A DNA stretch of 64,000 nucleotides from Physcia stellaris (lineage: Eukaryota > Ascomycota > Lecanoromycetes > Caliciales > Physciaceae): assembly GCA_018902385.1 (NCBI GenBank), contig JABSSW010000026.1:530865-594864 (forward strand), in the 5' to 3' direction. The position numbers and the translations under genes were made by a program. Positions within the stretch are counted from its first letter, which is position 1. Every line of letters begins with the position of its first letter. Below the pieces are notes generated by a model, which was not told the origin of the DNA, did not search any database, and saw only the letters and a program-made list of their open reading frames with translations. Of this stretch, positions 1 to 62,800 are shown piece after piece.

Positions 1-1730
1 AATTCGTTCATTGTAATCGTGAACAAATTCAATGATTCACTTTTTCATTTTTCGTTTTCAAAGAACATTATTTTGTGATGTTTAATGACATCGCGACGAT
101 CAAAAATTCATATTTTGTATTGAATGATGATGTTTTCGTCATAATTCATGAACACATCTGATTTTTTTGTATTGACGAATTTATTTTTTCTATTTTTTTC
201 AAACAATGATTTGATATCAACGAGCGAATAACATTTGCATTTTCAAACGCGTATGTGATTTATCGACGATTTAATATCTGTTCAAATTTCAATAAAATTT
301 GTTGAATTGTCGTCGATTATTGATTTCGTGTTCATACGATTGCGAACATATACATTTGTTTTTTCTGCTTCAAATCAAAATTCTATAAACAGTTTTGCAT
401 CTTGAGTCATTGCTCGAATTTGATTTTCGAACGTTTTTATGACACGCTCTATTACATCGTTCTGAATGAAATTATACGAAACGATGTACTGTGAAACAAT
501 GTCGATAAATTCGCATCAAAAATCGAGTATGAATTTAATTTTTTGACGTTGTCACAACGTATTGTCTGTAGTTTTCGTTGAGTTTCTAGTTTCATTTTCA
601 ATTTTCATTTGTTGAGAATTTCAAAAGCATCGACTCGTTTGCGAAAAATAAAATTCACGTTCGTCGAGAGTGATTATTCACGATTTCTAAAAAGTATTCG
701 TAATCGAGTCTTGAAGCAAATAAAAATTCGCAAATATCAATAAACATCAATTTCAATATATGAATTTTGCGTTCGACTAGACGACGATTATGTGCATTAA
801 TTATTTTCGTAATCGCACATATTTTACATGAATCGTTGCGATTCTCGACGATGAAAATCGATTTGCGTAAAGTTGTGATCTTGTGCAAATCTCGAAATTT
901 TGCAGATTTCATATGATCAAAACGTCGATGTCATAATTCGTATAAATCACGTCTTTTTTGATCAACATTTGAATCAATATTTGAATCAACATTTGAATCA
1001 ATATTTGAGTCAACATTCGATGATTGAAAATCGATTTCGATATCATTTCGAGAATCAGTATCTGCATCGAACAAAATTTCGTTCGAGTTCACGATTGTTG
1101 ACATTGCAATGAAACAAACAAAATTTTAAAAATTCAATTGCAAACATCGTGTTGCTCGCTAACAATGCGTATTTTTTAAATTTTGATGTGATTTTGTTTA
1201 TTATGTAAACATTTTTTTGAGCGAATGCTCGAAATATTTCAACGTTTTGTTTATTGCGCATGAACAAATTATCGTCATTGAAATTTTTTATCAAATTTTT
1301 TTTGATAAAGTGTTTGTCGAATAAAAAATTGACGTCGAAATCAAATACATAAAACATTTTCGTTAACGTGTTTTCATCATTTTTGACGCGTATCGTCATT
1401 GAATCACATTGATTTGAATACAATTTTTTTTTTTCGATTTTGATCGTGCGTCTTTTAATCGATTTGAAAAATTCATTAAAAAGTCGAAAATCGTCAATCA
1501 TGTGTGACGAAACGTCGATATTTGCAATTCATACGAATTTGAAAAGTTTATTGATCAATTCTTTTGACAGAACGACGATTTTTTTCATATCGTTTTCATT
1601 GTTTGAATCGATGTCGATGTCGAAGCTGAAATTGCTGTTAGACGAAAAAAGTCTGCGACGTTGTACGCTTTATGTTTTTTGTTTTTTTTTTTATTTTTGA
1701 TTGTGAGCAATTTCTTGATTTGTTGTTTCT
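1..1730 (-). pseudogene. Copia pol relic: protease region and start of integrase
   Basis: Minus-strand fragments show the copia order after gag: protease-linked sequence (1055-1501), an Asp/Ser/Asn minisatellite, then the gag-pre-integrase module with HRRFDHM and CKICAITK (Zn ligands H/H/C/C), then the integrase core start with FIDICEFLFASRLDYEYFLEIV (655-912). That last block corresponds to the SIDICGPLP..RLGYxYFLEIVDNHSR block of fungal copia integrases. The Trp expected before HRRF is TGA (931-933), as in the other copy. Not functional. Confidence 0.7.
960..1020 (-). repeat. 12-bp minisatellite inside copia pol, about 5 units
   Basis: On the minus strand the unit is attgattcaaat/gttgattcaaat, coding Asp-Ser-Asn-Ile/Val. 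There are about five units here and about seven in the copy at 59700-59780. Confidence 0.8.
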
Positions 1731-1734
1731 TTGT

Positions 1735-2638
1735 TCATTTTTTTAGTGTTTTCAAAAAATTGCATTCGACGATTCTGTGTGAATCGTCACAAAAAAAACA
1801 ATTTTTAATTTTTTTCGTCATGATTTTGAAACGACGACGAAAACTTTCATCAAAATTAAAAAATCGTCGTTGAAATATGCGATACGATTGACGACGATTG
1901 TTTTTGATCATCAACGTCGATTCGACGATCTTGTTCGCAATGAATTGTGTTTTTTTTTTTTGCAATTTTTGAATAAATTTATCGACATCGAAATTGTTTT
2001 GTGCGTCGATTGCATCACGAATGACATCGTATTCGACAAACAAAAATGCTAAAAATGTTTGAAAACGACGTTTTGATTTGAACAAATTCATCATGTTTGA
2101 TTGCATGTTTGCAACTTTGCGATTTTTTTTGATGATATCGATATAGACGATTTCAATGATCACGTCTGAAAATTTTTTGTAATTCATGAATTTTTGCAAC
2201 AACTGTCGTTCAATTGTAACAAATTTTTGTTTGTATTTGTTGACAAAAATTTTTCAAATTTTTCTGACAATTTTCAATTTCGTCATCAATTTTTGATCAT
2301 CGTCATCGATACATTCGATGAGTTGATATTGTGCTTTTGCGTCGAATTTTTTTTCAATATTTTTATCATCAAAATTCAAATCGACATTTCATTTTGATTT
2401 TCGAATGTCATTCGACAACAATTTCGACACATAATTTGAATCGACGATCATTCAAATTTTTTCGTCGATAAATCATTGTTTCATTAACTTGAATCATTTC
2501 TCGCAATTTTGACGAGTGAGAATATCGCAAACTCGACGCGCGTTGAATTTGTTGAATTCGAAATCGTTCATGATGCGTGATATGATATGTAAATGTGTAA
2601 ATTTTTTTTATTTGTTGTATTGCGTGAAGCATTTTCAC
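1735..2638 (-). pseudogene. Copia gag relic with zinc knuckle
   Basis: Two stretches of minus-strand frame (2408-2638 and 1735-2202) encode Gag-like sequence, including a segment with DAIDAQNNFDVDKFIQKLQ and then a zinc knuckle CFFCDDSHRIVEC (CX2CX3HX4C, one residue shorter than the canonical CX2CX4HX4C). The copy at 58089-58989 is closely similar, which supports real ancestral coding. In life this would be the nucleocapsid that packages element RNA. Frames are broken by stops and homopolymer runs. Confidence 0.65.
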
Positions 2639-2807
2639 AGTCGTTCGTTCATTCGTTGAATTGATGATCGAATTCGAATATGTAAAACATTTTTACAACT
2701 TTGACGCGATCGAATCGATTTAAACATTTTCACTGCTGTTTGATTCTCGTGATTTCGTGATCGAGCGATTGACGTTGACAATCACAAAAACTTATGTTAA
2801 TTCGAAT

Positions 2808-2816
2808 CTCATAATC
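2808..2816 (-). other. Putative primer-binding site of the copia element
   Basis: Directly inside the LTR the minus strand reads gattatgag. This resembles the complement of an initiator tRNA-Met anticodon arm (CTCATAAYC), the half-tRNA priming known for Drosophila copia. The plus-strand copy at 57911 has the same site mutated to gattataag. Short match, so an inference. Confidence 0.4.
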
Positions 2817-3012
2817 TATTGAACGAATGTGAATGACTGTCATTGCATTGCATGCAATATTATCGAAATTACGTACAAAAGTAAATACAATTTGATTGCG
2901 CAAATGTTTTTAATAATGATCGATTTTGACACGTTTCGTTTAATCGATCAATCAGAAGTTCTGATTCTATTCGTGCTCATATTTCAATCTTTTGTCATCG
3001 TACTTTTCAACA
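2817..3012 (-). repeat. Copia LTR (5' LTR of the minus-strand element)
   Basis: 196 bp. Read on the minus strand it starts TGTTGAA and ends TTCAATA, the same ends seen in copies at 56143, 57715 and 63399. The internal region follows at once with gattatgag (2808-2816, minus strand). Confidence 0.85.
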
Positions 3013-3856
3013 GTTTTGAAATTTGCAAATTTCATAAAAATAAAATTGACGTTGTTGATTCGTGAAATAAATATTTTTTGTTTTTTGTTTTTTTGTTCGT
3101 TTCAATGAAATATACATGCATTATCGATTGAACATTTGCAATCATATTCGATTTTTGTATTTTCAATTTGTTTGAAAATTTGACGATAAAAAAATGAATT
3201 TTTTTGATAATTTCAATGCAAAAAACAAACGTATTCGATATCACAACGACATTGCGAATTATTTTCGAAATTTTGAACGATGTTGAAAACGACATTAAAT
3301 ATTCGAATGTTGTTTTTTGATTGATCATTTCATCGAAATGAAAAATCACATGATTCGATATTTGCATTGATGTAATCGACGCATAAATCAACGAATTGAT
3401 ATAACGTTTTTTTGAAAATGTTGTAATGTTTTTTTTGAATTTCACACGTGAATTTTTTTTAAAATCGTCAACAAAATTTATTGAAAATTCTCATAATCAT
3501 TTGATTCGATAATTTCATTTTTCGTATTTGATTTCGATGCATCGTATTCATTCGAATTTAATTTCTCGTCGATATTCATATTCATAACACGTTGCATCGT
3601 TGATTTGAATTTCTTGATCGTGTTTTTGAAAATTTTCTTTTTGATCGTTTTGTAATGTTGCTTTTTTGCATGATTCGAAAAATTTTTCATGTGTTGTTCA
3701 ATTAATTTCGAAACATTGATCAACTTTGTTGTTTTGTTCGTAATTTTGTCATCAATGATGATTTTTTTTTTGTATATTTATCATGATTGAAATCGAATGC
3801 AATCATGAAAATTTTAACAACAATTGAATTTTATTATGATTCGAATTGACGAAAAT
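3013..3856. other. AT-rich stretch, no gene recognised
   Basis: Low-GC sequence outside the copia LTR. Minus-strand open stretches (3032-3445, 3478-3723) are rich in Asn/Ile/Lys and I do not recognise them. They lie downstream of, and may belong to, the decayed minus-strand element that continues to about 6290. Confidence 0.4.
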
Positions 3857-6290
3857 TCAAATTTTTCGAATGATTTTCTCGACGTGAACGTGAAAAATGA
3901 CGAAATAATGAAATTTGTGATAATTATCATTGATCACGATCATTCGAATATTTCGAGAATCGATTTTGATGACAAAATACATTTTTAAATCTAAATCATT
4001 CATCAATTTTTGATTGATTATGATCAAATTCGATTTTTGATTTGTTTTGATCATATCGAATGATATTTCAATGATTAAAAAGTTTTTTTTGTCAAATTTG
4101 TTGCAATTAATGAACACGTAAAAAACATTGAATGATTTATTGATTGTTCGCAAATATTTTTTAATAATTCATTTGTTGTTTTTATTTTCATCGATTTCGA
4201 CGAAATTCGTGTTGACGATTTGAATATTTGCGATTTAAATGATTTTTGCTTTTTTCGTGCGTGATTTTCGAAAAACGATAATAAAACGTTTTGATTCGTC
4301 ACGAAAATAAAATGAAAATTGATACAAATGCATGACAAATAAAATAATTATGTTGTTCATGAAAATGTTTTTTACATTGATTTTTGATTTTTTTTTCATT
4401 TTCGAAATCGATTTCATCATTTTTTTGATTTTTTTTTTTTTTTTTTTTTTTGAATCGATCGACGAAAAAATCGACAATACGTTTTTGTTGAATGTTTTCA
4501 TCAATATTTGAATTGTTGTTGTTTTTTTTTGACGTTTTCGTGTTTTCATAACGTTGAATAACACGATCGAATCATCGAATTTTTCGTGAAATAAAATGAC
4601 GAAATTAATCTTGTTAATTTCGCGAAATGTGATAATTTTTTTTTCAAAATCATCGAAATCAAACATTGCAAATAAACGTTTTGAATCAAACATTTCAAAA
4701 ACATATTTCAATGAATTGCAATTAGAATCGTGTTTCGTTTTACATTGTTTGAGTTGAAACATACGATCAATATGTTTTAATAAAACAATAAATGTTGATG
4801 CAAATGTTGCAATTTCAAAATGAAAATCACGATTATAAATCTCGTTGTAATACGTGATTTGATTTATTGCAAATTTCGAAAATTATTAAATCGCGTTTTC
4901 GTTGTTGATTGATAATCATGTTCGATGTTTTGTTGTTTTTGAAACAATCGAATTGTACGATGTTTGAAATTGTTGTTGTGAAATATGAAGTTTTCTAAAT
5001 TGCAAATATGACGAGTTACGAAATGTTGAAAAATTATAATTTGTTGTTTTTCAAATAAAACGTCGTTTTGCATAAATTATTTGTTGATGAATCGAGCAAT
5101 CGCATTGATTTTCATGATAATCAAATAAATCGCATTTGAAACATCAATGATCGTGTTTCGAATAATTGTATATTTGAATTTCATTGAACAATGAATTCGA
5201 ATGTTGATATTTACGTGTTTCGAAATTTCGATTTTTTTGCGCACGTTGCTCGTCGATTCATTTTTTCGATTGATATGTATTCGAAATTGAAACAAAATGT
5301 GTGAATTGATTATGTTTTTGTTCGAATCGAAAATTTTGTGAAAAATTTTTTTGTTGATGTCGAATCAACGAATTTGTTACAAAATCATTGATTATATTTT
5401 GAATGCGATCATTATTTCGAATACGTTTGAAATTCGTAAAACGATTATTCGAAAAAATAAATTCGATAACATATTTCAATATGATCATTTGCGATTGTAA
5501 AATTTGAATCGATGTATTCGAATTGTAATTTTCGATTTTGATGATCATGAATTTTTTATCGAAAAATGTTAATTTCTCGTTGCGTTTCTTTTCAATCTTT
5601 TTAATTTGATATTTTTTTTGACGTTTTTGAATTCGAAAATTTTTTTTGTCGACGTGCAAATTTTATAGAAATTACGAATTTCAATGTTTTCGTTATGTTT
5701 GACGTAAATTTTTGTTTGCAATTTCTCGTCACGTATGTTTTTGATGTAATACGCGATAATATTTTTGAAAAAAATTTCAGAATATTCAACGATTCGACGA
5801 TCGAAAGATTTTTGTCGTCGAATTTTTTGAACAATTCGATCGTGCGTTTATAATAATTTCTCAACGTTTCGTTTTTTTTTTGTCAATCGATTGAAATTTC
5901 AAATTATAATCGTGTTCGCGTTTTGTTTTCGTTGTGTTTTTTTTATTTTTGTCGAAATATTCGTAATCAATAAAACGAATAAATTCGATTTTATCGATCT
6001 CGATGAAATTTTTTTGACGACGATATTTTTGACATCGTTATTCGTATTTATTCATTTTTTGCATCGTTTTCGAACAATGTTCAAATTGTTTCGATTCATT
6101 TTTTGTTCGAGAAATTTTCAAAAACTCGTTTTTGAGTTTCGTAATTCAACGTTTTTCATTTTTTTCTCGTCAAAAATGATATATTTGAATTTGATCGACA
6201 TGATTGTTATATTGTTTTTGACGAATTTTGAAAACGTAAATTGCGAAAAAGTAAAAATAAAATTTGAATTATTGATAAATATGATATGAA
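3857..6290 (-). pseudogene. Decayed minus-strand gag-like coding sequence, possibly with a protease segment
   Basis: Successive minus-strand frames read as one eroded protein of roughly 800 residues. A charged N-terminal part (about 5600-6290) is rich in Glu/Lys/Arg/Tyr. Next comes a Gln/Asn/Arg-rich middle (4864-5660), then a poly-Lys tract (4430-4450 region). The last segment (3857-4153) has FDKKNFLIIEISFDMI and LIIINQKLMNDLDLKMY, which resembles the strand pattern of retrotransposon aspartic proteases, but no DTG/DSG is visible. I found no zinc knuckle, RT or LTR pair. Most likely gag/protease of another LTR element; this assignment is inference. Confidence 0.35.
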
Positions 6291-6387
6291 AATCGTTAAA
6301 TTTGATTGTGAATTGATTTGAATTTTGTTTTTCGTTTTCGTTTGAATGATAAAATATATCGTATGTCTTCGATCACAAATCACACTT

Positions 6388-6480
6388 GATACAATGAAAT
6401 CGTTGATTGATATCGACTTCGTACGATTTTCGATGATCGCAATCCGGACAATGAGCGTGTAAACACAGAGACAAATTGAC
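6388..6480 (-). pseudogene. Zinc-ribbon-like fragment (CPDC ... CIKC)
   Basis: Minus-strand translation gives HCPDCDHRKSYEV followed by a segment ending HCIKCDL and then TGA. The spacing is CX2C-X16-CX2C, a zinc-ribbon pattern. The stretch still contains CCGG and several CT/AG steps, so it is less mutated than its surroundings. Parent protein not recognised. Confidence 0.35.
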
Positions 6481-6539
6481 TGAAAATCAGATAATATCTG
6501 ATGCAAATATCGAAGTGCTAAATGATCTGAAAAATATGA

Positions 6540-7250
6540 AATGCTGAAATTCTGATTTCGAATGCCTGATAATGTTTAACATTTCAATCGAATGATTTTG
6601 CGTTTTTGTTGTTTTATAATTTTAATTTTATTTGATGTCTAATATGCGCTTGATTTTTGATTTCTATAATAATTGATTTACACTGTTTGATAGTGTAATA
6701 TTGAATTTTCTCGATAATTTTGATTTGAATTGAGTGTTGAATTTTAAACTCGTTATGTTCGTTTCGATATTTTTTTCGAATAACAGTTTGAATGTTTTAG
6801 TACGTTGTTTGAAACAACGCATTTTTATGATTTTGTATAATGTTGTAATTCGATATTTCTATTCGCTATGTGTTTTGAATGTTTGATATTGATTTTTGAT
6901 ACTCAATGAAAAATGATTGTTGTATTGTAATATGATCGATTTTGCTGTTTCGATTGAAAAACTAAAAAAACGTTCAACGAAAATTTCTTTTAACAGTTTT
7001 TTTTCTCAGAATGATCATCAGAAAATGAAATTTCTAGCAATACGTAAAAATTGTAAAATAAATCACTAATAAAAAATTTAATATGAATCTGATCAAATGA
7101 TTTTGAAAATGCTTGTTATGATTTATTTGCAAATGTGTTACGAGCGAATTTCTAGTAGATTTATTGTCAAGCAATTAAGATGCGTCACGTGACGTCTCGC
7201 TTATTGATCAATTATCAGTTTCTTGATTCGTTCTTCCTAACACTAAAGAT
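6540..7250. other. AT-rich border zone, nothing recognised
   Basis: No coding frame or repeat found. The mutational signature fades here (more CT/AG steps). Base composition changes to ordinary at about 7190-7260, which marks the left edge of the gene island. Confidence 0.5.
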
Positions 7251-28784: not shown

Positions 28785-29450
28785 AGCCCAATGAGGAAAA
28801 CGTGGTATAGAACCGCCTGGAGTAATCGCGTAGGCATTCTGCAGTAGCAGCGTGTTTAATGGGGGTAACAAGGAAAATGCCTGAACATGTTTCCATCAGC
28901 TCGAAGAAGGATTGAGTAGTTGATTGTACAGATTCAGATGTGTTCTGTCCATTTGAACGTATGTGATGTATCACAGGCTAAATGTTTAGGTGTCGTTGGA
29001 GCGATATTTTATTGTATTGTAGAGAAAGAAAGATGATATCGGACTTGTCACCTGAATCTGGATCTAGTCCGGCTTTCGATCTCGTAAACTCTTCATGCAT
29101 GGATCTTTCATTTACCCCGGGATTTGCCGTCCGATTTTGCCACAACAATTCAGTCTCGAAGTCCTGAAATTCTCTGTTCGATTTTTCCACTCCGGGATAT
29201 TTGAATTGCAAGTGCAATCAGCAGCGGCGCTCCTTCGAAAAAAGCGATTCTTCGCCCAGAAGGTATGGAAGAAAAGGAAATGAACGACAGAGATCTGTTA
29301 GAACGTCGCATCGGGATCTCTTCCCTACTGGGCCAATCTCGAAGACACTAATGTACGTTGTTGCCAGCGACACATCTGCCTATTTTTGGCTTTTCCCGAA
29401 TTTAACTCAGTACAAGAATGATTTCTTAGCGTGAAAAGCACGGCTTGCGA
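28785..29450. other. Intergenic region at the right edge of the gene island
   Basis: No gene supported. Base composition drops sharply at about 29440-29470. Confidence 0.5.
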
Positions 29451-30220
29451 ATAAAGTTTATTTCGAGCAACGCGAAAGATCGCAGAATTAGAATTACAAT
29501 GTATCGAATTGTTGAATGAATGAAAATAATCACGATGTTTTCGAGCAAAAAAGTTGACTGCTCAAATTGACGAATACAAAATAATTACAAAAAAAAATTT
29601 TTGAATGTAAAAAATGTCAAAATTGCAAATTAATAAAACGAAAAAATGAAAAACTGATTGAAAAACGATTTTGATTGAAAAAATGTAAATATGTTTGAAT
29701 ATCGCATAATGTATATATATGCAAATAAAAAATCAATATTTTAATGAAGCGAATTTGATTGAATGATTTAACGATTAAAATTGTAAATAAACATTTTTCA
29801 TTCAAAAAATCGCGAATTCGAATCGTATGATGAACAAAATGTTGAACAATCGAATGAATTATTTCATGATTATAAATTCAAAACGCAAATTTTGACGCGA
29901 ATGAAAATTCTCAAAATAATCGAATTGATAATTTCGAATCACTGTTAACATGTGAAATATAACAAACAATAAACATTATTTTTTTGCTGTTGTGACAACG
30001 TTAAAAACTGATGCTAAACGCAAAACAAAAAAAAAATGATTGAAACGTTGACGAAACAACGACGATTGCACAAAAAAATGTCAAAACAAAATCGTGACGA
30101 AATGATGTACGAGTCGAAAAAAAAAAATATTGAAAACGTCGATCGAAAAAATAAAAACGATGTAATGATATTGACGAAACGAATGATAAAAAAAAAAACG
30201 AAAAAAAAAAAAAAAAAGAC

Positions 30221-30445
30221 GAAAAAAAAAACGAATCGAACAAATGTTTCGACAGATTTTTTGATTTGAATTGTAAAAAAAAAAACGCAACAAATTGTAA
30301 AATTGTTAATGATTAAAAAGAAAAAATCGCAAAAAACGAAAAAAAAACGAATCGAACAAATGTTTCGACAAATTTTTTGATTTGAATTGTAAAAAAAAAA
30401 AAACGCAACAAATCGTAAATTTTTTAATGATTAAAAAAAATTAAT
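30221..30445. repeat. Tandem duplication, period about 116 bp
   Basis: Two near-identical units both contain acgaatcgaacaaatgtttc, then a poly-A run and acgcaacaaat (anchors at 30231 and 30347). They differ mainly in poly-A length and a few A/G changes. Confidence 0.8.
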
Positions 30446-32280
30446 TTCATGTATTGATGTTCAAAATTATTTATTTCGTCGTTATCGAAAACACGATCGC
30501 GCGATCACAATTGAACGTGTATAAAATTTACGACGTGATGAAAATTCAAAAACGCGTTGAATCGTGTCAAAAATACGTTTTTCAAATTCAAAATTTCGTA
30601 TTACAACTCATCGTCACGATGTGAAAAATGAACGATCGTGTAATGTGTTGAATGAAAAACAAAAATTGAAATAAATGAAAAAAAAAATTGCGAAAACGAC
30701 GATTATTGAAATAAACGAACGTGCGAGAAAAAATTTTTTCGATTTCGAAACATCAATTCACGACATGATGATCATGAAACAACAATTGAAATGAAATGAT
30801 CGTTTTCAAATTGATTTTTTGAATTTTTTTTTTCATTCAAAATTGACGTTGTATCGATGCAAAAAAAAAAAATATGATTTTACGAATACATGCATTATGA
30901 CGTTTGATTTGAAACGATTATTTTTAACAATTGACGTAATTATGTGAATCGTGCAATTATTATTGTTGAGACGTTGTTTTTCGCGCAAAAACAAAACGTT
31001 TTCATCGTATCATTTTTAGTTTTCGAATTATCATCGTAAAAATTTATCGAAATGCGATCGTTGTCATAATCATTTATTTCATTCAAATATTTGTTCGTTT
31101 TTTTTTACTCATTTTGCGTCGAAAATATTCAAATTTTTGTTTTTCAAATTCAAATTTGTTTCAATTATGTTCATTTTCGATCGAATTTTTTTGAATGATA
31201 TGTTTCGCAAATTATTTTTTTGAAATTATAATGTCATTGTTTAACGTTTTAACAACATCGTCAATTTCATTTATTTCATTTAAAAATTTTTGTTTTTCAT
31301 TTTGAAAAATTGTTTTAAATTTCTTTTTCATCGATTTGAATTTTATTTTTCAAAATTCAATTCGTCGTTTTCATTTTCAGAATTTGAATTCAAACGTGTC
31401 GTCGAAAACATATTCAAACAAATAGATTGAAACGAATTCGCGAATTATGTAATCAATAACAGAAAAAACAAAATGTATAAACGTATGATAAAAACATTGT
31501 TGCAAAAGAAAATCGACGAATTTTATAACAAAAACAAGAAAAAAAACGAAAATCAAATGAAATTTGAACAAACGTTTCAAAAAAAAAAAAAAAATGATTC
31601 GAATTAAAAACAACGATAATTGACGAAACAACGATGATTAACAACAAAAATGAAATCATTTCTATATCATTGATTGCACATTTCGCTTTTTCAAAAATTT
31701 CAATTTCATATTTTTTTTGCGTAAAACATTGTACGAAATCAAAATCATTTGTGTAAAAACATCAAAATCAATTTCAAAATGAAAAGTTTATTATTCGCGT
31801 CACAAAATTGTTTGTTTCATGATATTTTCGAATTGAAAACAGAAAAACAAAAAAGATTTTCAACAAAAACAAATTGATTTTTGCGTCAATGATCGCAAAG
31901 ACGACTATTTTTCAACGTTTTTAATTTTTTATTTCAACAACACAAAATATTGTACGAATTCAATAACAAATATGTATAAACGTCAAGTTTTCTTTTCATA
32001 TGAAAAACTTTTTTGAAATACGTTGAAATTAATTTTTTCGTGTAAAAAAATTTTAGAATTGTGATTAACAATATTCATTGTCATTATCAACAACAACATC
32101 GTTTTTCAACAAACAACATGATTTTCAACAATTCACATTGTTAAAATATGTCATTAAACGTTGATGATTTTGCGATTCAAAATTTTCATAATCACGTTCA
32201 AATCGCAAAAATCGATCGATTTGTTCAAACAAATCTCAATTGATTTTTGAAAAAATCAATATTTTTTAAATCATATCATA

Positions 32281-32326
32281 TCATGACATGACATAACATG
32301 TCATGATATGTTATGTCATGATATGA
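32281..32326. repeat. Imperfect palindrome (hairpin-forming)
   Basis: 46 bp centred at 32303/32304 (centre tcatga), with 20 of 23 positions pairing by hand. Built from catga/taaca units. Confidence 0.7.
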
Positions 32327-32589
32327 CATACAATACAATATGCATATATTATAAATTTTTTACAAAAATTTTTTTTAGCGTTTTTTTTTAACGTTTTTTT
32401 TAGCAATTTTTGTCGCGTGATCGTCAAAATGCAAATAATCAATTTGATTGAAATTTACAAATTTCATGTCGTCGCATGTCGCATATCGCATAAAATATAC
32501 ATTTTTTATTTTTTGCGTTGAAATTTTTCAACGTGTGATTGTTTCGTTTTCAATCAATTTCGAAAAAATTCAACGAAAATTAACATGAT

Positions 32590-33330
32590 TCAGAATTTTA
32601 GAATTCGATTATCGTTTGATGTTCACATTTCGAATGATTGAATTATACAAAATTTCAATTTTCAATCGATTCGAAAACGTTCGTGTTCGTAACATTCAAA
32701 TTTTAACGATTTAATCATCGCATGTTGTCAATGATACGATTGACGAAAAAACGCAAAAAAATTGAAATTTGCATGCATATCATGCAAATTTTTCAATCGA
32801 ATCGTTGTCATAATTCATGAATATTGAAAATTCGAATGATCGAATTTTCAAAATCTCATTTGCGATTTCAAATTTCGAAAATTTCAATTCATTCAAAATT
32901 ATCGATTCAAAATGTTCAATCGAATCGAAAACGATCGTATTCGCATATTTAAAATTCGAAAATTTGATTATCGCATGATGTTAAACGCAAAAAAATTGCA
33001 ATTTGCATAAATATTAATCGAATTTCACAATCGAATCGTTGTTATAATTTATACATATTTAAATTCGAATGATCGAATTTTCAAAATCTTATTTGAAAAT
33101 TCAAATTTCAACGTTTTTGTTTATCAAAAATCGATTCAAAATGTTCAATTCGTCTCAAAACGATCGTATTTGCATATTTAGAATTCGAAAATTTGATTAT
33201 CGCATGATGTTAAAAATGCAATTAACGTCGATACGTAAAACGATTGAAAATTACAAAATTATCAATCGAATTTTTCAATAAAATCGTTGTGAAATTTGAT
33301 GCATGTTCACGATCGTGATGAACAAACATT
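32590..33330. repeat. Degenerate tandem repeat, about 230-250 bp, three units
   Basis: The anchor atcgcatgatgtt (first copy atcgcatgttgtc) recurs near 32712, 32969 and 33199. It is surrounded each time by ttcaatcgaatcgttgt and gaatgatcgaattttc blocks. Confidence 0.65.
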
Positions 33331-35631
33331 TAAATTTCAACATAAATTATCAAAATTCGAATGTTCACGTCATTCAATATCACGAAATTCAATCGTCAAT
33401 ATCGAATATATAAATTTTTGTTTTTTTTTTTTTTTTCAATTTTTGTCATTCAAATAAAGTTATTAATTATTTTTCGTAATTTACATTTTTTTTTTTATTT
33501 CGTTGCATAAATTTGCTTTTTGATAATTTTAATTTTTTCAAATTTCACATCATGCGTTTTTTCATCGTCGAAAAAATTGACGATCAAATTCAAATGAAAA
33601 AAACTTTCGCAAAACGAAAATCATTTACACACAAAAATGAAAAAAACAAAAAATCGTGAATTCATTTCATTGACAAAATGATGAATTCGTCATCGAATTC
33701 GAAAACATTTATTTATTGAACGACGAAATGTTGTTGAAAATCAATTTTTTTTATCAAATTTGATTTTTATCGTGTATTTTTGTCGTCATGTTTGTTTATT
33801 TTTTCAGTTTTTTTTTTATTCGACGATCATCATTCACGATTTTACAACAATTGTTCAAATTGAATTTATGATGAACGAATATGTGCGAATAATGTATTTT
33901 GTTGTTTTTAAAAATGACAAAACATCGATTTTCACAAATCAATGAAAAATTTATGATTTCGATCGTGACGATTAAAAAAAAAAAAATGTCACGCAAATTA
34001 ATGTTTTTATTCAATTTTTTTGAAAATTTTATTAATCGATTGTTCAACAAACGTTGTTTTTTATGTATTATCATAATTCAAAAAAATATACGTACAAAAA
34101 CGTGTATTTCGACGACAACAAAAATTTTTTTGTTGACAAAATCGTAAACATAACAATCATTTATATTGTTCAACAAAATACAAATAATTAATGTTCATTT
34201 TTTTTTTATGTCGAATTTTAATCAATTGTTTCGTGATTTAATTTTCGTTAAAATAATCAATTTGAATTTTATCGATTTGTCGATTCGTTCGTCGACGACA
34301 ATTTCAAAAAATTTTGTTAAAAATCGTTTGATCACGACAATATTCATTTTCGAACGTTCGATTTTTTCAAATTTTTTTCATTATAAATTTTTTCGTTCGA
34401 TTCGTTTTTCAAAATTTCGTTCATATCGATGAATTTTTTCATGAAATTTGTCGCAATGCGAATTCAACAATTTTTTTTAATATTTTATATGTTTCAAACA
34501 TCGATCGAAAATAATAACAATTCGTAAACAATAATTTTTTACGATTCAATTTTTGTGAAATTGAATATCGAAATTGCGATTGCGAAAACGATTGTCGAAA
34601 ATGAACAAAACGAAATTTTTTCGAAAAAAAAAAATCAAACGTAATAAAAAAAAAACGATTTGAACAATTAAAATGAACGATATATTGTTCAAAAAACAAT
34701 CAACAACAATTTGCAAATTGTGAATGATTTTTTTTGCAAAATAAAATAAAAACGATTATAATATCGATTTGATTCAACATTTAATTTTTTGTTAATGAAC
34801 AAATTAGACGTGATTTTTATATTGATTTTTGCAATTTCAAATTATTTAATTTTTCAAATAAAACATAATAAATTTTTTAACAATTTTTTCAATTAAAATT
34901 CGTCAAATTTGAAAAAAAAAATCTTTTTCGTCATTAATAATTTTCGCATAACATTTTTTTTAAATTGTCGTCATTTTTAAATTCGATTATTGATGTTCGT
35001 ATAAAATTTCACATTTCAAAAATAATTTTGATATTTATTATATTTGTTATAACGATCATTGAAATCAAATTTTCATCACGTGACGTTTCAAATTAATGAA
35101 AACATTTCATTTTTTCATTTTTCAAATAATTTTTTTTTTTTTCATGTTTCATCACAATTGCAACAAAACAACGTTAAATATTCATCGTGAGATATTTTTC
35201 ATTCGTATTACAAATGAATTCGAAAATTTTTTAAAAAAAACTTTTCGAGAATTTTTAAATTAGAATCAGATTTGATAAAATTGCAAAATTCGAAATGAAC
35301 ACAAATTTGACAACGATGTAATTTTCGAAATGTCAAAACTATTGCGATAATGAATCGATTTTTGTTATTTTTGCGACGTTGAAATGCGCTCATTCTGCTT
35401 TACAATTTTGATTAAATAAGTGAAAATCATATGTGATTGTTGATTGAAATGCAAAATGCGAAACAACTGTAATAAATTCGATGATTGAACGTCAAAAAAA
35501 TTTTGAATTAATCAAATCAAAAAAGAATGTCGCAAATCAATTTGAGAATTTGAAAATTTCAATGTCAAACATGAAATCTGAATTGCAAAAATTGCAGTCA
35601 TTTGATCACATCTTCGAAACATATCATGATT

Positions 35632-35636
35632 CTCGA
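35632..35636. repeat. Target-site duplication ctcga (left copy)
   Basis: Matches 38658-38662 exactly. Confidence 0.9.
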
Positions 35637-35810
35637 TGTTACGAGCGTGCCCCGGAGGCATTGCCGCAGGGCTGGGAGGAACACGTGACTAGGGCTTGGC
35701 TCCCGCAGGCCCTACACATCTACTTCGGCCTCCACCTGTACATAGATCTTTCCTCCCTAGTTTTAGAATCCTCGTTTAATGAATACCGACTACCATGCAC
35801 GGCTGTAACA
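35637..35810 (+). repeat. 5' LTR of the BIR element
   Basis: 174 bp, identical to 38484-38657 by eye over its full length. Confidence 0.95.
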
Positions 35811-36039
35811 TTATTCTAAAACTCCACTCCTATTCAACAGGAGGCGTGTACTTGTATACGTCTCTTTAACCACCAGTGGCCGAAGGAAGGCAACACGACT
35901 GAGTGGGACCACCAACCAACGGTCCTACCGAATCAGTCAACCAAGGCCCAGATATCTGGCCTACCAATTGCAGAATCAACTGCCCACCAGTACGACCTTA
36001 TTCAGCAGGCCGTACAACCCCATTGGCCGCCTTCCTACC

Positions 36040-36360
36040 CACCTGCTCGGCATACCCCTTCGGTAATCGCACGAGCCAAAACACCTACCTATCTGCTCGG
36101 CAACTCCTCCAACGATTGCACGAGTATCCTACCCATTACAGCCCGAGAAAGATCCTGAAATACACGCGTTTGCAAGCCAAATAGACGTGTCCTCTCCAAC
36201 TCCGTCCGGAACGGCTCTTCGATTCGTTCGCCAGCACTACATCTACCCTACCTGCTCGGCAACCTCCTTCAGAATTTGCACGAGCATCTCCATTACAGCT
36301 CGAGATACCTGACGAAAACATACGCGTTCGCACGCCAAATCGACGCGTTCTCTCCGCTTC
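36040..36360 (+). repeat. Imperfect direct repeats in the element's leader
   Basis: A block starting ctgctcggca and ending gcacgag occurs at about 36041, 36093 and 36251. The last two copies extend about 100 bp further (36098-36199 versus 36258-36357), as far as gacg.gt.ctctcc. Confidence 0.75.
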
Positions 36361-36411
36361 GGTTCAGGAGACTCCTCAATTCAATTTCGATTCCGATTTC
36401 GCTCCGCCACC

Positions 36412-37104
36412 ATGGAAGCCTTTATTTTCGCGACCCCTACAGGTGGTACGACTTCGATCCCTCCTCCGTTGAAGCCGTTATCCACATACGAAAAACGATT
36501 AACGAGTCTGTCAATCACTCGGCCTTATCCCAGCGCAACACGTCGTCCCCACTCCAAGGCAGTCATGGCCGCCGCTGGCTTTTCAGGAAAGGGCAATTCA
36601 GTAAACCCGAATGACATCGAATGTCTGACCTGCTCCTTGAGACTATATACGGGATACTACACTTCTGAGCCGTTGAAGAAACATCTTCGTGACGCACCGC
36701 ATTGTTCGCTCGCCCAACAACTCCAGCAGGAAGCCGAATCGAAGAAGATCGCTGAATCGAAAAACATTGTTGAAACGCCGAAAATCGAACCTTCATCTCC
36801 TTCGCCCGCCAAGCTCCTGGGCACATACGCGGACAGACTGGCGAGTCTAGACAATTGGCGTAATGTTGGTTCAAAAGAAATCCTGGCCGCCGCTGGATTC
36901 AGAGGCACTGATATCTGCTACAAGGCACAATGTGCTCATTGTTCGATAGAAATATTCGGCGTTGACCGCGAAGAAGAACCGCTAAAATATCATCTTCGAA
37001 GTTCACCTCAATGCCTCCTCGCCCTACAACTCGAAAAGGAAACTCAACTCATGTTTTCCAGAAGCCATAGCCGAGACCGCGAAACCCACCCCTGTTGCTG
37101 CTGA
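36412..37104 (+). CDS. Protein with two BIR (inhibitor-of-apoptosis-type) zinc modules, encoded by an LTR element
   Basis: 230 aa from an ATG in a near-ideal context (gccaccATGg). Two copies of a BIR-like domain are visible. Copy 1 (about residues 25-105) has TYEKRLTSL, AVMAAAGFSGKG and CLTC-X16-H-X6-C. Copy 2 (about 135-215) has YADRLASLDNW, EILAAAGFRGTD and CAHC-X16-H-X6-C. The CX2CX16HX6C spacing plus the preceding 'LA.AGF' helix are the hallmarks of BIR domains, which bind zinc and mediate protein contacts in IAPs and survivin/Bir1. A Glu/Lys/Pro-rich linker separates them. The frame ends soon after copy 2 and the next frame (+1) takes over at about 37051-37061. The role in the element is unknown; it may replace or extend Gag. 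Confidence 0.75.
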   Translation: MEAFIFATPTGGTTSIPPPLKPLSTYEKRLTSLSITRPYPSATRRPHSKAVMAAAGFSGKGNSVNPNDIECLTCSLRLYTGYYTSEPLKKHLRDAPHCSLAQQLQQEAESKKIAESKNIVETPKIEPSSPSPAKLLGTYADRLASLDNWRNVGSKEILAAAGFRGTDICYKAQCAHCSIEIFGVDREEEPLKYHLRSSPQCLLALQLEKETQLMFSRSHSRDRETHPCCC

Positions 37105-38446
37105 TATCGGTTTTTTCGATGCAACACTCGCGTGCGATATTCAGGAGTTCGGTCTGTTTTGCAAGGCCGCGGGCTTTGTACAACGATTTCGGCAACGTCA
37201 ACACCAATATCGTGAGTCAGATCTGCTGGCTCTGTTACCTGAATGCCTTCGTGGCCCTGCATTGGCCTGGTACAAAGAACAAAGCGAAACAACCGCCAAG
37301 AGCCTAAGCGAATGGCTAGAAGCCCTGGCCACCGCATTTCCTGCGAAAACTCCTGCGAAATCGTCGATTCAGACTCCTTCTTCTGCTCCGCCTGCTTCTC
37401 GTCCCCCGCCTCAATATCACTCCTGCCTCAATTGCTCCGCATCTTTCTCGTCATTGGCCCGATTATTGCAACATACTCAAGAGGCCGTCTGCAAAAAGGC
37501 CGTTTGCAAGCACTGCGAGGGGGCCTTTGATTCGAAGAATAAACTCCACGAGCACCTCCGCCAACACCACACCAAACCAGTGGAGGATGAGGTAGTTAAC
37601 GCTTCGGGACGAAGCTCCAATAGAGAGGGAGATAAAACCTCACCAACAACCTCATCAACAACAACTCCACCAACCTCACCCAAAACAACAACAAAAATTT
37701 CGATATCTAGGCCTGTCACACCCCCAGAGCAGACGAGAAATCCACCTACTCCGCCCGCAACTCCTGCAACGCCAGAGCGTTCGCGTCTCCCATTAAATAC
37801 ACCTAAAACCACACCAAAGTCTGTGGAGACTGCATCAGTCAATGGCCTCCTTACTCCGCCCGCAACACCTCCACCAAAGCTTCGAAAACCCCAGAAGCCC
37901 CACCTCACTATCGATGACCTGGTCCGCATGTTTGCTGGGAAGCCGAGACCATTTGGCCTACGTCAGCACCAAAATCGCCCTTCTTCTCCACAGAGCCTTG
38001 GGGGCCGCCAATCTGACCGACCAAGCCCCCCCTACCAATCTCGAATCACCGCCTACTTCCTGCCTGCAACCAATCAGAAGGTACCGATTAGTCAGGGTCT
38101 AAAAAGCCCAAATCCGAAGAGTTTTCAGCAGCCTATGCCTGCGGAAAAGATCCGCTCTGGCCTGCCCGAGAAATCGGCCTTTTCACCATACAAAAAGCCA
38201 GGCATCTCCTACACCTCGCTGCAGCCAAGGTCCTCATTGCTGCAGTCAAGGTCCTCATCAAGGTCCTCATTCGCATGGCCTTCTCCGCCTACGTCTCCGC
38301 CGTCCTTTCGATCTCCGCCCCCAGATCACGTTTGTTGCACCTGCTTCGGTCATTCCAGCTTCCGCAGTGGCCCGTTCGACTACCTACGCCCCAGCCAACG
38401 ATACCCTTGGAACCGCCGGCCGATGAGAGGGATATGGGAGAGGTAG
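37061..38446 (+). CDS. Gag-like / C2H2 zinc-finger frame of the BIR element
   Basis: Open frame overlapping the end of the BIR frame in the +1 register, with no good ATG of its own before the Gag-like part. Residues coded at about 37110-37345 (FCKAAGFVQRFRQ, LLALLPECLRGPALAWYKEQ, LSEWLEALATAF) resemble the capsid part of Ty3-type Gag ('LRG.AL.WY'). Two C2H2-type fingers follow at about 37420-37575 (CLNCSASF and CKHCEGAFDSKNKLHEHL). A long Pro/Thr/Ser-rich tail ends in TAG at 38444-38446. It is likely made as a fusion with the BIR part, by frameshifting, or the frame was broken by a single extra T. No enzymatic domain. Confidence 0.6.
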   Translation, partial: EAIAETAKPTPVAADIGFFDATLACDIQEFGLFCKAAGFVQRFRQRQHQYRESDLLALLPECLRGPALAWYKEQSETTAKSLSEWLEALATAFPAKTPAKSSIQTPSSAPPASRPPPQYHSCLNCSASFSSLARLLQHTQEAVCKKAVCKHCEGAFDSKNKLHEHLRQHHTKPVEDEVVNASGRSSNREGDKTSPTTSSTTTPPTSPKTTTKISISRPVTPPEQTRNPPTPPATPATPERSRLPLNTPKTTPKSVETASVNGLLTPPATPPPKLRKPQKPHLTIDDLVRMFAGKPRPFGLRQHQNRPSSPQSLGGRQSDRPSPPYQSRITAYFLPATNQKVPISQGLKSPNPKSFQQPMPAEKIRSGLPEKSAFSPYKKPGISYTSLQPRSSLLQSRSSSRSSFAWPSPPTSPPSFRSPPPDHVCCTCFGHSSFRSGPFDYLRPSQRYPWNRRPMRGIWER

Positions 38447-38483
38447 TCGCTTCGGGACGAAGCTTGCAGAGAGGAGGGGATAG

Positions 38484-38657
38484 TGTTACGAGCGTGCCCC
38501 GGAGGCATTGCCGCAGGGCTGGGAGGAACACGTGACTAGGGCTTGGCTCCCGCAGGCCCTACACATCTACTTCGGCCTCCACCTGTACATAGATCTTTCC
38601 TCCCTAGTTTTAGAATCCTCGTTTAATGAATACCGACTACCATGCACGGCTGTAACA
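38484..38657 (+). repeat. 3' LTR of the BIR element
   Basis: Identical to 35637-35810. Followed by the right target duplication ctcga (38658-38662). Confidence 0.95.
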
Positions 38658-38662
38658 CTCGA

Positions 38663-58088: not shown

Positions 58089-58989
58089 GTGAAAATGTTT
58101 CACGAAATACAACAAATAAAAAAAATTTACATATTTACATATCATATCACGCAACATGAACGATTTCGAATTCAACAAATTCAACGCGCGTCGAGTTTGC
58201 GATATTTTTATTCGTCAAAATTGCGAAAAATGATTCAAATTAATGAAACAATGATTTATCGACGAAAAAATTTGAAAAATCGTCGATTCAAATTATGTAT
58301 CAAAATTATTATCGAATGATTTTCGAAAATCAAAATGAAATGTCGATTTGAATTTTGATAATAAAAATATTGAAAAAAAATTCGACGCAAAAACACAATA
58401 TCAATTCATCGAATGTATCGATGACGATAATCAAAAATTGATGACGAAATTGAAAATCGTCAAAAAAATTTGAAAAATTTTTGTCAACAAATACAAACAA
58501 AAATTTGTTACAATTGAACGACAATATTTGCAAAAATTCATAAATTATAAAAAATTTTTAAATATAATTATCGAAATCGTTTACATTGATATCATTAAAA
58601 AAAATCGTAAAATCGCAAATTTGTAATCAAATATAACGAATTTGTTCAAATCAAAACGTCGTTTTCAAACATTTTTACAATTTTTGTTTGTCGAATACGA
58701 TGTCATTCGTGATGCAATCGACGCACAAAACAATTTCGATGTCGATAAATTTATTCAAAAATTGCAAGAAAAAAAAACACAATTAATTGACAAAATCGTC
58801 GAATCGACGTTGATGATCAAAAACAATCGTCGTCAATCGTATCGTATATTTCAACGACGATTTTTCAATTTTGATGAAAATTCTCGTCGTCGTTTCAAAG
58901 TCATGACGAAAAAAATTAAAAATTGTTTTTTTTGTGACGATTCACACAGAATCGTCGAATGCAATTTTTTGAAAACATTAAAAAAATGA
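58089..58989 (+). pseudogene. Copia gag relic with zinc knuckle
   Basis: An N-terminal piece (58089-58319) and a longer piece (58642-58989) share the DAIDAQNNFDVDKFIQKLQ block with the left copy and end in CFFCDDSHRIVEC (58924-58962), followed by NFLKTLKK and a stop. The ancestral role is nucleocapsid. Confidence 0.7.
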
Positions 58990-60780: not shown

Positions 60781-61399
60781 GCATTTGCAATCGTTTCGAT
60801 AACATCGACGTTCGCATCAATTTTTGTCGCATCAATTTTTGCGAAAGTTTCGATTTCTGTTGCGCTCATGATTTCGAAAAACGAGAAAAAAATTCAGTCA
60901 ATGCACACAGAAAAAAACGATGATGAATTTATCGATACATCGAATGAAAAAAATGAAATCAACGAATTTACGACAAAATCGACAATTCAAACGCGCGTTA
61001 AATTAACATTTTTTATCAAATCTTCACGCATGATACAGCAATTTTTTCACGTGACAATTTTTAAACGCAAACGAAATATCATTGATGAAAAAAAACGAAA
61101 TGAACATCGTAACAAAATTGCACGCGTTATAATGATTTTTGATCGAAAATTTCGATACGTATGAACATGACGAATGAATTCTGTTTGCGACAACAAAAAA
61201 ACAAATCGACAATTCGTTGAAAAATTAATCATATTTGTATTCGAAAATTATCAAAAAATCGTCAATGATTTTATTTGAAACAAATTTTGATTTGAAATCA
61301 TTCAAATCGAATTGACGACGTTAATAATCAATGAAATTTGAAACGTCGTCATTTCATCGAAAAACGTCAATATCGTCATCAATAAATGAATATTCAAAA

Positions 61400-62800
61400 T
61401 CAAAATGCATGTGAATGATACATTGAACAAATTAAAAATCAAACTCGTTGCAAAAAATTTCTCGCAAATATATAAAATTGATTATACAAATATTTTTGTT
61501 TCAATTGTCAAATTCGACACATTTCGTTTGTTTTTTGTCATCGTCGCGTTGAAAAATTTCGAATATCATCAAATAAATGTTAACAATGTTTTCACGAAAT
61601 CATTTTTAAAAAAATAATTTACATAAAATCGTCATTCGACGTGAATTTATCTTTCGAACAAAGCATTTTCTGATTCGTCGAAATCTTTATGAATTGAAAC
61701 AAACAATTAGAAATTGACACGAGCGTTGCGTGAAAGAATTGCACAAATTGAATTTCGAACAAATTTCGATTGATTTTTGCATGTTTCGTTATAAAAAAAC
61801 GAGAAATTATATTGTTTTTTTACGTGAACGACATTTTTGTTGTCGTCAAATTCAACGAGCAAATCAATTGATTCAAAAATGAATTCAAAAAGATATTCAA
61901 AGTCAAAAATTTGAAAAAATGAAAAAAAATTTTGACATTAAAATCACTCGCGATCGTAAAAGACGAATTATTCGATTGAATCAAACTCATTATTTGAACG
62001 AGATATTGAATGAATTGCGTATGAATATCGATAAACACGAACGTACGAAATTATTCATGAACGATTACGATTCACTCAAATCAATGAATCGAACGACGAG
62101 CGAATTGATTCAAAAACTATCAACACAAAATTGAAAAATTTATGTATGCCGTTATACACACTCGTTCAAATATCGTTTTTGCATTGAAACGATTAAATCA
62201 ATATTTCAATGATTTTTGCGAAACATCACGATGAAATAATGAAAATTTGTTTCGTTACATTCGATCGATCATCGATCTAAATCTTGTATACGATTTGAAA
62301 ACAACAATGAAAATTTCAAAATCAAAATTTATTCGAATTTTGATTACGCAGTCGATAAATTGAACAAAAAATCGATTCTCGAATACGTTTACATGTTCGT
62401 TGAGAAATCAATATCATGAATGAATCGTAAACAAAAATCGATCGTTATTTCAATCATTGAAATCGAATATATGACTTTATCGACATGCGTTAAAAAAAAT
62501 TATGAATAACACAATTTTTTCGAAATTTGAATTTCATCAAATATTTCGAAATCGAATTAAATCAAATAACAATCACTCAAAACGATAAGCATGAAATTTG
62601 TTCATCAATGCAACTTTTGAAAAATAATCAAATCGTTAATTTGTTGATCAAAAACGCACATATTCATGAACGATCAAAACACATTGATGTGATTTATCAC
62701 AACATCAAAGATTTGCATCAGAAAATTTGATTCAATTGAATTACGTTTCAAATGTAAAACATGATAATCGATGATTTAACTAAATCGCTATCAAAAATAA
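61400..62800 (+). pseudogene. Copia reverse transcriptase and RNase H relic
   Basis: RT: LKIKLVAKNFSQIYKIDYTN, FVSIVKFDTFRLFFVIVALK, YHQINVNNVFTKSFLKK (61405-61617). It continues through LYELKQTIRN, TGA, HERCVKEL and FFYVNDIFVVV (YVDD is now YVND, 61821-61832). Then FDIKITRDRKRRIIRLNQTH, YLNEILNELRM and the 'FMYAVIHTR' equivalent. RNase H: NRKQKSIVISIIEIEYMTLS and HIHERSKHIDVIYHNIKDL (62527-62730). All are hallmarks of copia Pol. Many stops. Confidence 0.82.

Follow-up and report, generated by a model that had tools for sequence, protein, structure and literature searches.

In Neurospora crassa, repeat-induced point mutation (RIP) takes its target sites in the order CpA>CpT>CpG>CpC, and a different order is given for T. 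reesei, as far as the accessible text of the source goes (PMC5496416). According to the accessible parts of further reports, species with CpA or CpT signatures possess RID/Masc1 genes (PMC4352252), strong CpT signals come out of RIPCAL-type analyses (PMC2621366, PMC7882544), CpA RIP in Monilinia is accompanied by CpC>TpT double mutations (PMC8959702), and a survey of 1,239 genomes concluded that a CpA preference is shared (PMC12543289). Here, we go through a stretch of 64,000 nucleotides (the window) of the lichen fungus Physcia stellaris (contig JABSSW010000026.1, positions 530,865 to 594,864), together with transposon copies elsewhere in the genome, in which CpC is lost first and CpT second, CpA is nearly spared and CpG is left. 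That this pattern is real is confirmed; its direction is clear and its degree extreme. It is RIP-like, yet it lacks the CpA preference that defines canonical RIP. The initial annotation, made from the letters of the window, had proposed a cytosine-mutating process of CpY context (C followed by C or T), and the spectra between repeat copies now support it. It had also considered fungal RIP of this preference undescribed, without ruling out a report, and none that is CpC-led and CpA-sparing was found in the literature searched, a partly accessible body with most subscription papers and preprints outside it.

Three AT-rich stretches of the window, 37,946 bases together, hold ten CC/GG dinucleotides and 860 CT/AG. 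Thus, of the two sites first described as destroyed, CpC is indeed nearly gone while CpT is lowered and not abolished. The left block, at 1-6440 with a G+C content (GC) of 0.274, has no CC or GG on either strand, and its cytosines are followed by A, C, G and T 868, 0, 758 and 140 times. The middle block (29443-35636) is free of CC/GG from 29470 on (GC 0.239 for 29470-35636, with corresponding counts of 784, 0, 620 and 72), and the right block (38663-64000) contains all ten CC/GG (GC 0.264 for 38662-64000; 3154, 10, 2890 and 648). Block edges are sharp, and the GC-normal region between left and middle blocks, 7236-29442 as delimited by CC/GG positions, has ordinary dinucleotide odds in the ten 2-kb bins of 8-28 kb. 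The left block had been drawn at 1-7200; it reaches about 7235, with CpT loss less complete from about 6440. In this edge zone, 6441-7235, three CC/GG remain (6444, 6446 and 6565) and CpT is partly kept, which might reflect a younger element or weaker action beside genes. The CpC- and CpT-poor look had been extended over 29.45-64 kb except for 35637-38657, and the exception turns out to be an unmutated long terminal repeat (LTR) element inserted in the block. This island, on the forward strand and non-autonomous in appearance, has two identical 174-bp LTRs (35637-35810 and 38484-38657), a target-site duplication CTCGA at 35632-35636 and 38658-38662, and normal dinucleotides.

Can base composition by itself produce such blocks? 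Over positions 1-6300, both strands counted, mononucleotide shuffles predict about 236 CpC and about 620 CpT where 0 and 137 are observed. Across the AT-rich blocks composition predicts that 12-14% of cytosines are followed by C, and CpC is practically absent; CpT, expected at 36-38% of cytosines, accounts for 5-10%. In the 17 fully AT-rich 2-kb bins (1-6000, 30001-34000 and 40001-64000; GC 22-31%), odds ratios are 0.00-0.03 for CpC, 0.01-0.52 for CpT, 2.65-4.17 for CpG and 1.12-1.47 for CpA, with TpA/ApT at 0.32-0.54. Since shuffles and odds ratios both lie so far from expectation, the depletion goes beyond composition, and a composition-only origin, which the initial annotation had named as an outcome that would speak against it, is ruled out by the shuffles and the CpG excess. 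Its hand count of positions 1-180 was reproduced in every figure (CpA/TpG 30, CpG 16, CpT/ApG 3, CpC/GpG 0; TpA/ApT 7/27; (CpA+TpG)/(ApC+GpT) 30/18). Trinucleotide tables show that CC is missing whatever base precedes it on the 5' side.

The direction of change is most clearly seen between L036, a stretch of GC 0.51 that carries RVT_1, has broken open frames and is taken from its residues to be Gypsy-like, and its mutated copy L053. Over 3472 aligned bases, 916 of 918 substitutions are C:G>T:A transitions (389 C>T and 527 G>A), the other two being a T>C and a transversion; 13 positions are gapped. Changed from L036 to L053 are 441 of 443 CpC, 449 of 460 CpT, 26 of 442 CpA and 0 of 410 CpG; CG stands at 206 in both sequences, while L053 has 0 CC+GG where L036 has 446, and 13 CT+AG where L036 has 469. 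At CpY the hazard is about 7400-fold that of other substitutions, with a lower limit near 2000-fold; the hazard at CpC is at least about 740-fold that at CpG and about 90-fold that at CpA. When every CpC and CpT of L036 was changed in a script, identity to L053 rose from 73.2 to 98.4%. A spectrum dominated by CpA to TpA, the other outcome that would have spoken against the proposal, was looked for in the repeat copies and not found.

Pooling of 11 separate copies of this second family, by the longest-scoring aligned piece of each, gives changed fractions of 0.91-0.99 for CpCpN, 0.86-0.87 for CpTpN and 0.03-0.045 for CpGpN. A third, weak target is CpApY (CpApC 0.15 and CpApT 0.09 versus CpApA 0.05 and CpApG 0.03); with A at +1, the base at +2 therefore matters too. 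Information on mutation amounts to 0.654 bits at +1, the 3' side, and 0.004 bits at -1, the 5' side. Among themselves, five of the mutated copies share 91.8-95.2% identity, as against 70.0-73.6% with L036. Other pairs, from diverged families, were kept out of the pool; in the GC-poor ones CpC change is 0.45-0.74, with CpA and CpG up to 0.29. L036, L037, L038, L039 and L064 were also aligned to four parts of the window. A single alignment exceeded 300 bases (L036, 331 bases; CpC 0.64, CpT 0.45, CpA 0.34, CpG 0.27); it has the same order although it is diverged and noisy. L066, a GC-0.51 stretch surrounding the best RVT_2 match, did not align to either of two parts of the window.

The island provides a second reference, for what we call family 1. 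A genome search with it returned at least 64 matches, and 29 loci (L006-L034) were compared with it, L031 being too short. Eleven GC-poor loci in which C>T exceeds T>C over 3 times were pooled and 15 GC-normal loci served as controls; because L009/L028, L022/L024, L029/L030 and L018/L034 overlap or coincide, these correspond to about 8 and about 14 copies, respectively. L021 (CpC 0.45, CpT 0.23) and L025 (0.24, 0.16) fall outside both the pooling rule and the controls. Relative to the island, the GC-poor loci are changed at 0.56-0.91 of CpC, 0.24-0.74 of CpT, 0.08-0.21 of CpA and 0.06-0.14 of CpG, whereas the controls are flat (CpA 237/2432, 0.097; CpC 355/2900, 0.122; CpG 303/2466, 0.123; CpT 256/2527, 0.101), so that CpA change in the GC-poor loci is near background. 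The graded stages within the family, and early-stage copies such as L026 (CpC 0.62, CpT 0.24) and the above L021, indicate that CpC goes before CpT. Strand-resolved CpC rates are alike, both strands being hit about equally per site. In L010, L022, L023 and L024, of which L022 and L024 overlap, CpT is skewed between strands (0.57 and 0.35 in L022), CpC much less. In L008 (around C42:41577-44593), CpC change is 0.77-0.96 per 500-bp bin over island positions 1-2000 and 0.06-0.21 beyond, on both strands; mutation thus covers the first two thirds of this copy, ends within the element at island position about 2000-2100, and leaves the remainder at background level. This is suggestive, and only suggestive, of a homology-defined edge, or else of a conversion tract. 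Spectrum, direction, two-strandedness, order and near-saturation are therefore observed features of the copies, and the process is present in at least two transposon families.

It is to be noted that the loci were selected by searches and do not amount to a survey of the 44 Mb; the genome analysed has 43.97 Mb in 147 contigs and is probably a filtered deposit of the published assembly, which, by the accessible text of its paper, comprises 46.57 Mb in 184 scaffolds, from axenic ascospore cultures sequenced to about 31x by nanopore and 30x by Illumina. Neither repeat-induced point mutation nor transposable elements came up in a term search of that text. Of 30 RVT_1 loci examined, 24 have GC below 0.40 with CpC at 0.00-0.09 of C, and 6 have GC 0.44-0.51 with CpC at 0.20-0.26. 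In 500-bp windows of the examined loci, CpC of C goes from 0.244 at GC 0.50-0.55 through 0.073 at 0.35-0.40 to 0.003 at 0.25-0.30, while CpT goes from 0.257 through 0.246 to 0.102, which again means that CpC falls first and CpT later.

The same pattern shows in the reading frames. In a simulation on four unmutated stretches, change of CpC and CpT created TGA stops only and change of CpA created TAA/TAG only. Inside the 137 RVT_2 matches listed, of which 4 are stop-free, 401 TGA, 101 TAA and 3 TAG are found, and among 30 of 150 listed RVT_1 rows, those with loci, 49 TGA, 3 TAA and 1 TAG were counted by eye, 6 rows being stop-free. Stops are thus mainly TGA (TGG>TGA), as a CpC process predicts. 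The window itself has an RVT_2 (Copia-type) reverse transcriptase fragment on the forward strand at 61330-61608 (match C26:592194-592472) with two in-frame TGA. It also has an open reading frame on the reverse strand, 1738-2253, presumably a gag-like remnant in view of a CxxC-HxxxxC knuckle, and a second copy of it, recognised by eye, at 58627-58989 on the forward strand. The 11 relatives of the former at E up to 0.001 (9 from ENA, 1 from JGI and 1 from a source labelled lgn) contain, in 1578 residues, 0 Gly, 1 Pro and 0 Trp but 105 Gln and 12 His, as counted in these relatives by themselves. Shortage of Gly, Trp and Pro with Gln kept is what one would predict if CC and GG disappear and CA is retained.

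Which enzyme can read the 3' neighbour of a cytosine in this way? Choice of the target by its 3' neighbour is in keeping with a DNA methyltransferase. A genome search for C5 methyltransferases, which the initial annotation had suggested for RID, DIM-2 and Masc1 types, gave four matches representing three genes: two of the RID family with intact PCQ (L001 and L003), and L002, with DNA_methylase and DUF7893, which we take to be DIM-2-like. In a quick tree of 89 rows with SH-aLRT (Shimodaira-Hasegawa-like approximate likelihood ratio test) support only, from which 4 rows without a recognised domain start were dropped, L003 (contig C5; 932 aa as P0001; motif EQT) groups with proteins of Usnea, Pseudocyphellaria, Heterodermia and Teloschistaceae, and it retains the loop typical of the family. 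L001 (C6:790906-792561; 513 aa in a spliced model; motif EET) belongs to a clade of 33 rows whose named members are from Physcia and Heterodermia only; the nearest named proteins outside it are of Eurotiomycetes, some called DmtA. In an 18-row alignment, L001, the Heterodermia protein and P0123 have AQxxKPxDFEDKQ after PCQ in place of the HTxxGxxDDxN form of 14 other rows. P0147, a relative of L001, has an intermediate loop and PCP for the catalytic PCQ, and may mark a step in the loop change. The putative target-recognition segment is also short in the altered-loop rows, but Geoglossum shares part of this, so only the loop is distinctive of the L001 group. Because its clade replaced the loop after the catalytic PCQ, L001 appears from sequence to be a better candidate than L003 for a changed specificity.

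We therefore propose, with a probability of roughly 0.7, that transposon copies of P. stellaris are hypermutated by a RIP-like process led by CpC and CpT, carried out by an enzyme of the RID/Masc1/DmtA family with L001 as the lead candidate. By the spectra, the process acts on both strands of transposon copies and selects a cytosine by its 3' base irrespective of the 5' neighbour; it converts C to T at CpC first and at CpT second, touches CpApY weakly, spares CpG and CpApR, and can run nearly to completion. The mutator would be a RID-family cytosine methyltransferase with altered 3'-base specificity, possibly the DmtA-type paralogue L001 with its rebuilt catalytic loop, and the process may be RIP proper, triggered by homology in the sexual cycle.

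Several observations weigh against this proposal. Transposon copies are hit and 8-28 kb of the window is ordinary, yet not every duplicated stretch is hit: L037 (C5:1166521) and L038 (C12:60312), both with RVT_1, are 95% identical over 3475 bases and unmutated; no mutation is seen either in L006 and L007, island copies with 79-80% identity to the island, and L036 has stayed unmutated despite 11 mutated relatives in a culture raised from ascospores. L037 and L038 may represent escape, recent arrival or a limit of the process; RIP proper would need the unmutated duplicates to be recent, too diverged or missed. Moreover, the mapping of specificity to L001 is drawn solely from the 18-row alignment, and DIM-2 of N. 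crassa is described, in the accessible text, as preferring CpT (PMC13297926), so L002 could be the mutator. A more far-reaching account, which we offer tentatively at somewhat less than even odds, is that this lichen lineage re-specified RIP. The rebuilt-loop DmtA/RID paralogue would drive a nearly complete conversion, CpC>CpT in preference; because conversion would be almost deterministic, mutated copies would converge, like the five compared above, and stay mutually recognisable, while an unmutated copy, a stranger to them, would escape.

If L002 rather than a RID-family enzyme is the mutator, its action would be mediated by heterochromatin, in the manner of the DIM-2/DIM-5 branch of Neurospora RIP. 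The genome has one Pre-SET match beside L002, and long continuous blocks such as 38.7-64 kb resemble heterochromatin. However, the sharp edges in the window and the stop of mutation inside L008 suit a homology-defined target better than spreading, and it is CpC and not CpT that leads, which makes this route unlikely. Slow decay, in which methylated CpY in silenced repeats deaminates spontaneously over long times, would also turn C into T on either strand and favour certain 3' bases, but 916 changes against 2 other substitutions between L036 and L053, a hazard thousands-fold higher at CpY, rule it out on rate, and we give it very little weight.

Still less probable is that methylated CpY was read as T in a nanopore-led assembly. 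Short reads from unmutated copies might indeed fail to polish a diverged copy at the coverage mentioned above, but a one-strand miscall of a modified C should be outvoted by reads of the opposite strand, and graded stages as well as edges inside elements are present; the gag-like relatives from ENA, JGI and a third source, which show the predicted composition, argue against an artefact as well. Equally improbable is an APOBEC-like deaminase that edits transposon cDNA. Deaminases are well known to act at CpC, and the 8 PF00383 matches of the genome are what ordinary cytidine deaminases would give (APOBEC_N had no match, an uninformative search, being silent in control genomes too). APOBEC-like enzymes, however, read the 5' base, which here carries 0.004 bits, and both strands are hit, about equally per site at CpC, and L053 has 389 C>T and 527 G>A; neighbour side and strands together rule this out. 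Canonical CpA-type RIP or plain AT-biased drift, for all the AT-rich transposon blocks adjoining GC-normal genes and the RID-family genes present, has next to no chance, being excluded by the CpA spectra of both families, the low TpA/ApT, the CpG excess and the TGA stops. CpG-type (Masc2/DNMT1-RFD) hypermutation was also rejected, CpG not being the main target (0/410 in L036/L053).

For the proposed RIP-like process, some practical consequences follow. Usual RIP indices score loss of CpA and gain of TpA, and by them the P. stellaris sequence reads as un-RIPped, even though mutation of its transposon copies can be almost complete. The damage also differs: in place of CAA/CAG>TAA/TAG, Gly and Pro codons are lost and TGG>TGA stops arise. 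A natural swap of specificity from CpA to CpC/CpT, in a genome with two RID-family paralogues differing in their catalytic-site loops, would make cytosine choice by RID directly testable.

As far as accessible texts allow comparison, one of the closest settings is that of another Lecanoromycete, Cladonia rangiformis, where RIP also left sharp-edged AT-rich transposon blocks, although ripped GC peaks near 16% there and lies at 22-31% in AT-rich 2-kb bins of P. stellaris (PMC12542154); CpA, CpC, CpT and the word dinucleotide did not come up in a term search of its main text. The CpG-type hypermutation of Microbotryum, rusts and Rhizoctonia solani likewise has a non-CpA dinucleotide signature (PMC4352252, PMC4014442), but its target is the site untouched in P. 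stellaris. In Botrytis cinerea, Sclerotinia sclerotiorum and Magnaporthe oryzae, as here, CpT is a strong target and RID/Masc1 genes are present (PMC4352252); these species keep the CpA signature, whereas in P. stellaris CpA is nearly spared and CpC leads. With the RID-dependent RIP of N. crassa, P. stellaris shares a RID-family gene and dense C:G>T:A change that depends on the 3' base and affects either strand of transposon copies. Yet its order is CpC>CpT, with CpApY weak and CpG spared, so that the site least used in N. crassa goes first, and the target preference of P. stellaris is almost the reverse of textbook RIP.

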